Assembly: GCA_025699075.1 (NCBI GenBank)
Contig: JAILWG010000007.1
Location: 1 to 64,000, forward strand
Length of the DNA: 64,000 nucleotides
From: Candidatus Nitrosopumilus sp.
GTDB taxonomy: Archaea > Thermoproteota > Nitrososphaeria > Nitrososphaerales > Nitrosopumilaceae
Direction of reading: 5' to 3'
Below, one piece after another: positions 3,740-41,425 of the stretch. The position numbers and the translations under genes are program-made. The first letter of the stretch is position 1. Every line of letters begins with the position of its first letter. The notes beneath the pieces are model-generated. The model was not told the DNA's origin. It searched no databases and saw only the letters and a list, made by a program, of their open reading frames with translations.

Positions 3740-3840
3740 GCAGAGGTATCGAAGCCCGGTCAACCGAGAGGGACTCAAGATCCACAAAATTGGAAATCCC
3801 TTCTCTCAGGAGTTCGTGGGTTCGAATCCCACCCTCTGCA
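3740..3840 (+). tRNA. tRNA-Leu(CAA), class II, with apparent 16-nt anticodon-loop intron
   Basis: Acceptor GCAGAGG/CCTCTGC with A73; anticodon stem AGGGA/TCCCT encloses CTCAAG + intron; T-arm GTGGG-TTCGAAT-CCCAC; CCA not encoded. Confidence 0.9.
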
Positions 3841-23080: not shown

Positions 23081-23204
23081 TCCCGCGGGGCGGAATTGAA
23101 CCACCGACAACCCGGTTTCTGTATGCCTGATATGCTGTTTTTCGGTCAGCCATCTAAAGCCAACAACTACAGCCGGAAGCTCTACCAGGCTGAGCTACCA
23201 CGGG
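23081..23204 (-). tRNA. tRNA-Tyr(GUA) with apparent 50-nt intron; CCA encoded at 23078-23080
   Basis: C1:G72 acceptor CCCGTGG/CCGCGGG (archaeal Tyr identity), D-arm GCTC..GAGC, anticodon stem TCCGG/CCGGG enclosing CTGTAG + intron, T-arm GGTGG-TTCAATT-CCGCC. Confidence 0.9.
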
Positions 23205-41096: not shown

Positions 41097-41305
41097 ACTA
41101 TCAAGGTTAATTGATGTTTATAATTCCTCATTCTGAATTTTGTTGAAAATTCTATGTCGTGCTTTTTCTTTTTGATTACTTCTTAACACCTGTTTAAAAA
41201 TTATAAAAAAATTAAATAAATCATGAAATAATTATAATATATTCTTAAATATTAGAATTACATATAACATATATGCAAAATCGTGTAAATTATAACGAAT
41301 AATTT

Positions 41306-41389
41306 GCGCGGCCCTGCGAAAAAGACATGTTATCTGCGCAAAAGCGTAGCGGGTGAGGAGAATGCTTTTCGCCCTATACAGGGTCGCGC
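41306..41389 (+). ncRNA. Structured RNA candidate (three-way junction), unknown family
   Basis: P1 GCGCGGCCCTG/CAGGGTCGCGC (11 bp); hairpin CTGCGC-AAAA-GCGTAG; hairpin GGGTGAGGAG-AATG-CTTTTCGCCC; GC-rich in AT-rich flanks; pyrimidine/T-rich 3' flank. Confidence 0.75.
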
Positions 41390-41425
41390 CTTTTGTCTCT
41401 CTTAGATATTTTTTGAAAAATGTTT

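Follow-up and report, generated by a model that had tools for sequence, protein, structure and literature searches.

A predicted leaderless nine-codon open reading frame joined to a conserved three-way junction in a candidate small RNA family of the Nitrosopumilaceae

We identified a predicted small RNA gene on the forward strand of a 64,000-nt stretch of a Candidatus Nitrosopumilus genome (hereafter the window). The gene would span ~125 nt (41273 to ~41398) and is one of about three paralogues per genome. Judged by its sequence, the RNA is not a pure ncRNA: it combines a predicted leaderless mini-ORF with a folded RNA and a U tract. We hold this anatomy, a structured RNA family with a conserved mini-ORF, with high confidence. 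The Nitrosopumilaceae are among the most abundant marine archaea and drive nitrification, and we know of almost no descriptions of regulatory RNAs in them. A multicopy family with a length-locked mini-ORF would offer a handle on RNA regulation in this group. The features of the window copy are listed in Table 1.

Table 1. Predicted features of the RNA gene in the window, in 5′ to 3′ order
Feature	Position	Strand	Remarks
TATA box TTAAATA, the RNA's own promoter	41245..41251	+	~30 nt before the conserved ATG
Predicted transcription start and leaderless start codon ATG	41273..41275	+	T/G 99%/98%; fixed spacing to the TATA box
Leaderless mini-ORF, nine codons (MQNRVNYNE) plus TAA	41273..41302	+	Conserved start, frame, length and stop
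P0 hairpin GUAAAUUAU-AACGA-AUAAUUUGC	41285..41307	+	Extends over codons 5-9 and the stop codon into the first 2 nt of P1
Spacer between stop codon and P1, 3 nt	41303..41305	+	3 or 4 nt in 145/153 copies
P1 5′ strand GCGCGGCCCUG	41306..41316	+	Covarying; 7/11 pairs with both-side changes, 99.1% of cells paired
P2 hairpin CUGCGC-AAAA-GCGUAG	41334..41349	+	4/4 modelled pairs with both-side changes, 96.3% paired
P3 hairpin GGGUGAGGAG-AAUG-CUUUUCGCCC	41351..41374	+	7/10 pairs with both-side changes, 97.7% paired
P1 3′ strand CAGGGUCGCGC	41379..41389	+	Evidence as for the P1 5′ strand
U-rich 3′ end CUUUUGUCU, probable terminator	41390..41398	+	CCUUUU-like tract after P1 in Nitrosopumilus-type relatives; 3′ end predicted

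The element lies in the gap between two minus-strand genes, flanked by aroA with its 3′ end and by aroC with its 5′ end. An 84-nt three-way junction of helices P1, P2 and P3 had been described here on the + strand (41306-41389), and we recovered the same location, sequence, coordinates and helices, together with the five G-U pairs reported for the window copy. The minimum free energy (MFE) of the + strand is -43.2 kcal/mol (z -5.5, with none of 200 shuffles as good), whereas that of the minus strand is far weaker (-29.1 kcal/mol, z -2.1). Over 64 homologues, the paired positions contain 181 G-U cells versus 5 A-C cells, and the RNA is therefore read from the + strand, opposite to the aro genes, as the original prediction had it. 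We looked for conservation and covariation in relatives with a covariance model, as had been suggested, and found both. In the P1-P3 core of the 64 homologues, 98.2% of the pair cells are standard and 18 of the 25 pairs have changes on both sides; none of 500 shuffles was as good and slid controls were far lower. By this comparative evidence the three-way junction is a real RNA with a conserved structure. A DNA element or repeat was rejected on the basis of the G-U bias and the single-copy loci.

The competing CCCT/AGGG hairpin, which had been put forward as a possible switch, could be made out by eye in no more than 5 of the 22 close relatives and found no support. A loop pairing of the CAU in J12 with the AUG in the P3 loop was dropped, as no covariation could be seen by eye. 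Pairing of J12 with 23S rRNA, a complementarity that we presume for Nitrosopumilus only, was rejected because the complementarity is absent in Nitrosotalea. We also dropped the ATG within P3 (GGAGAATG...) as an ORF start because of indels directly downstream.

The promoter and the 5′ end differ from the original prediction. The TATA-like acatataacatatatg that it pointed out is not the conserved promoter, which is the TTAAATA in Table 1. The motif T[TA]AAATA precedes the start codon, an almost invariant TG that is usually ATG, by 28-31 nt in 94 of 107 copies; in 76 the distance is exactly 30 nt. A spacing of this size is typical of archaeal promoters, and the transcript is therefore expected to start at that ATG and to be leaderless, with the start site probably at its G or its A. 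The 84-nt extent proposed earlier thus takes in the core and omits the 5′ third of the transcript, namely the mini-ORF and P0. Leaderless starts are normal in archaea, and an ATG at the transcription start site need not mean a regulatory ORF.

We assessed the mini-ORF across the copies. Its length is nine codons in 143 of the 153 copies; another 6 have eight. The length variants differ by 3 nt and the indels are multiples of three. The nine-codon ORF is also present in A-type copies (those of the window's type) that were retrieved with a model of the core alone, which does not cover it. The stop is TAA in 71 copies, TGA in 49 and TAG in 33, and TGG never occurs in the stop columns, though TGA and TAG are common. 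Frame 0 is open, whereas early stops are frequent in the two alternative frames. In L205 and L243 a nine-codon ORF begins at an ATG a little 5′ of the start set by the model. Two further copies, both A-type, appear to be decaying: L103 (L103:1459-1598) has lost the mini-ORF stop and several P1 pairs together, and L101 is degenerate throughout.

We counted substitutions on an unrooted minimum spanning tree of nine-codon copies only, the two decayed copies being among those excluded. All 18 stop-codon substitutions keep a stop, versus 4.7 expected, and none of the 217 internal substitutions is nonsense, versus 6.9 expected. The omission of the decayed copies biases this test slightly, and adding one or two lost stops leads to the same conclusion. 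Most substitutions in the ORF fall at codon position 2. The proportions of nonsynonymous and synonymous differences (pN and pS) were 0.109 versus 0.013 in the A copies of the Nitrosopumilus group, 0.082 versus 0.073 in those of Nitrosotalea, and 0.091 versus 0.106 in the B and C copies. The low pS in the A copies is probably due in part to the P0 hairpin. By pN/pS, no purifying selection on the peptide was seen in any of the three groups. From the conservation of stop and frame, together with pN/pS, the start, frame, length and stop of the ORF are therefore kept while the amino acids drift. A coding signal of this kind, in which stops are preserved, the frame is kept and the peptide is free, would escape the usual tests for ncRNAs or genes. 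We consider it probable that translation of the ORF matters.

The second half of the ORF is also predicted to pair. In the A copies, P0 joins codons 5-7 with the ORF end, the stop codon, the spacer and the first P1 bases. The hairpin takes the form GCAAAUUC/GAAUUUGC in Nitrosotalea, has a compensatory change in L073 and L093, and is weaker in a putative Nitrosopelagicus (genus g34). For the window copy, the single-sequence MFE picks another small hairpin instead of P0. The paralogues differ here, the register in A being unlike that in B and C. The B and C copies share the P0-P1-P1b-P2-P3 arrangement with covariation: 92.5% of cells are paired and 66 both-side changes were found versus 17.5 in shuffles.

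We searched for the element in relatives at increasing depth. A 131-nt DNA query recovered it, at 83-95% identity, from 22 further genomes among 36 of this genus. The covariance model R1, built on the core, matched 108 of 250 Nitrosopumilaceae genomes in five genera, down to divergent Nitrosotalea copies, with a single copy in nearly every genome matched. A model built from a wider set of copies (R2) added two genera. A third model that includes the 5′ region (R3) found at least one copy in 221 of the 250 family genomes, in 124 of the 131 high-quality ones and in 16 of 22 genera; the hosts include Nitrosopumilus, Nitrosarchaeum, Nitrosomaritimum and Nitrosotalea. By these iterated models, most genomes carry about three paralogous RNAs, and each of 13 reference genomes had 1 to 3 copies. 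The genome from which the window comes holds a second copy (G000:C1:154900-155025) and is 85% complete, so a third may be missing from the assembly. R3 gave no convincing match in representatives of the order's other families or in a class-wide sample; the best E-values among ~200 genomes outside the Nitrosopumilaceae were 0.019 and 0.043, which we took as chance. A P3 pattern drawn from the paralogues had no match in viral contigs. L143, L111 and L162, from contigs labelled candidate division KSB1 bacterium or Nitrososphaeraceae archaeon, bear the Nitrosopumilaceae A-type pattern and probably come from mis-binned or mislabelled genomes.

The A, B and C paralogues occupy distinct stable loci, each with its own TATA box. 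The A copies lie in the aro cluster, and at different loci in Nitrosotalea, in the putative Nitrosopelagicus and in the genus g39. The B copies adjoin a short-chain dehydrogenase-like gene and the C copies a purP-like gene, both named from sequence motifs. Of 151 copies, 140 have a convergent gene as their nearest downstream neighbour and only 11 a co-directional one. Because the loci are distinct and stable and the downstream gene is so often convergent, we take the copies to be independent genes, not leaders of a single operon. The end of the convergent gene is close to the RNA (median ~30 nt). In B copies from several genera (e.g., L238, L228 and L200) only 1-5 nt separate the U tract from the stop codon of a convergent gene, which encodes a protein with an HVTLADP motif, and given this short gap the two may share a terminator. 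In g39 (L194-L196), a superoxide dismutase gene follows the A-type RNA after ~40 nt and reads the same way; no other co-directional context is consistent among the A copies.

We compared the RNA to known families. In Rfam 15, searched with covariance models as had been proposed, no family reached its gathering threshold at the locus; at E ≤ 10 the locus had only a meaningless match to ceN63 (15.3 bits versus 65), and the paralogues had no Rfam match. Archaeal C/D and H/ACA guide RNAs are likewise small stable archaeal RNAs, but the new family has no Rfam match and a C box (RUGAUGA) followed by a D box (CUGA) occurs in 0 of 154 copies, on which a C/D box sRNA was rejected. Archaeal RNase P RNA (RF00373) is also a structured archaeal RNA; it differs in size and structure and did not match the window, and the genome has its own copy elsewhere (G000:C1:32244-32522). 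A riboswitch or leader of the aro operon was rejected, since the RNA is antisense to the aro genes and lies at the other loci named above in Nitrosotalea, g34 and g39. A 5′-leader position before a co-directional gene was not conserved across the copies, whose contexts differ and are mostly convergent. We found no report of this RNA in a literature search that mostly covered sources outside subscription journals. The RNA family is new by all tests here. The original description as an uncharacterised thaumarchaeal ncRNA is borne out for "uncharacterised" and "thaumarchaeal" by the homologues, the covariation, the strand bias and the lack of an Rfam match; "ncRNA" is half right, given the conserved leaderless nine-codon ORF at its start.

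A mini-ORF kept in length and free in its peptide suggests RNAs that would be controlled by the translating ribosome. In the mechanism that we propose, the transcript would be made and its mini-ORF translated, a ribosome loading at the 5′ AUG without a Shine-Dalgarno site and opening P0. At the stop codon, the entry channel would reach P1 and melt its base. Ribosome occupancy would then switch the RNA between a closed form (P0 and P1) and an opened form, and, according to translation status, the folded form or the exposed segments would act in trans on a target, either a protein or an RNA. When 36, 39 and 42 nt were blocked in folding models, P1 retained 8, 5 and 0 of its 11 pairs, respectively, and P2 and P3 were unaffected; with modelled ribosome cover reaching 9-12 nt beyond the stop, P1 loses between 6 and all 11 of its pairs. 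We give this translation-gated, trans-acting mechanism as a whole a probability of about 0.4. Tentatively, the family may represent a categorically new archaeal class, in which an ORF of fixed length and irrelevant peptide parks a terminating ribosome against a three-way junction and the RNA reads out translation in trans.

The strongest competing explanation, which we regard as unlikely, is a ribosome-associated RNA whose mini-ORF tethers or stalls a ribosome at P1 and which holds or modulates ribosomes in a hibernation-like manner, with no switch. The leaderless AUG, the fixed 3-4 nt between stop and P1, the variable peptide and the multiple copies all fit it, but P2 and P3, plus the P3 pentaloop and the junction in the B and C copies, are conserved beyond the needs of a roadblock. 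Somewhat less probable is an attenuator acting in cis, in which the translating ribosome blocks P1 and hence termination, so that transcription reads through as antisense into the convergent neighbour or into a co-directional gene. The U tract lies directly after P1, convergent gene ends are near and the superoxide dismutase gene in g39 is suitably placed; however, the neighbours vary by paralogue and genus (aroA, the purP-like gene, the HVTLADP protein and others) and co-directional downstream genes are rare.

We find it improbable that the RNA is a micro-mRNA, with the nonapeptide as its product (a signal or a microcin-like peptide) and the structured part as a protective 3′ UTR. There is a precedent in mccA, the heptapeptide gene of microcin C, and the start, stop and frame are conserved. 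The pN/pS values of the Nitrosopumilus-group A copies and of the B and C copies argue against a selected peptide, as does the excess of substitutions at codon position 2. Least credible is a conventional structured ncRNA or antisense sRNA in which a conserved initiator and a URR spacer yield the ATG and the stop as by-products. Conservation is highest in the structured core and many sRNAs have no ORF, but the missing TGG, the uniformly stop-preserving substitutions, the 3-nt indels and the single open frame all speak against it.

We also compared the layout of the RNA to those of small RNAs that carry ORFs. SgrS, Spot 42 and RNAIII are dual-function small RNAs that combine a regulatory RNA with a short ORF. 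Their conserved peptides are longer and their ORFs are internal, with ribosome sites, whereas the new RNA is predicted to be leaderless, with nine codons and an unconserved peptide. The only similar layout that we found in the literature is that of rnTrpL, and the likeness is one of layout, not of membership. In Sinorhizobium meliloti, the small RNA rnTrpL begins directly with the AUG of a leaderless ORF of 14 codons, followed by an attenuator structure and a terminator; it lies upstream of trpE and is transcribed together with it, acts in trans and encodes a peptide that is itself functional in trans (PMC7298713). No homology between rnTrpL and the new RNA was detected by any test here. Unlike rnTrpL, the new RNA is archaeal and free-standing, with about three paralogues and no downstream operon, and it has a fixed nine-codon ORF with a drifting peptide and a three-way junction 3-4 nt after the stop. 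Sequence and fold models show a short 5′ ORF and a stop close to P1, a geometry by which translation may change the folding of the RNA downstream, as in a trpL-type attenuator; a regulated operon downstream was not found, most copies having no co-directional gene. On present evidence, we would place the new RNA with the known small RNAs that bear a short 5′ ORF.

Two tRNA genes elsewhere in the window, at 3740-3840 (+) and 23081-23204 (-), were missed by ARAGORN. Their RF00005 matches span 101 and 124 nt, respectively, and both genes therefore probably contain introns.
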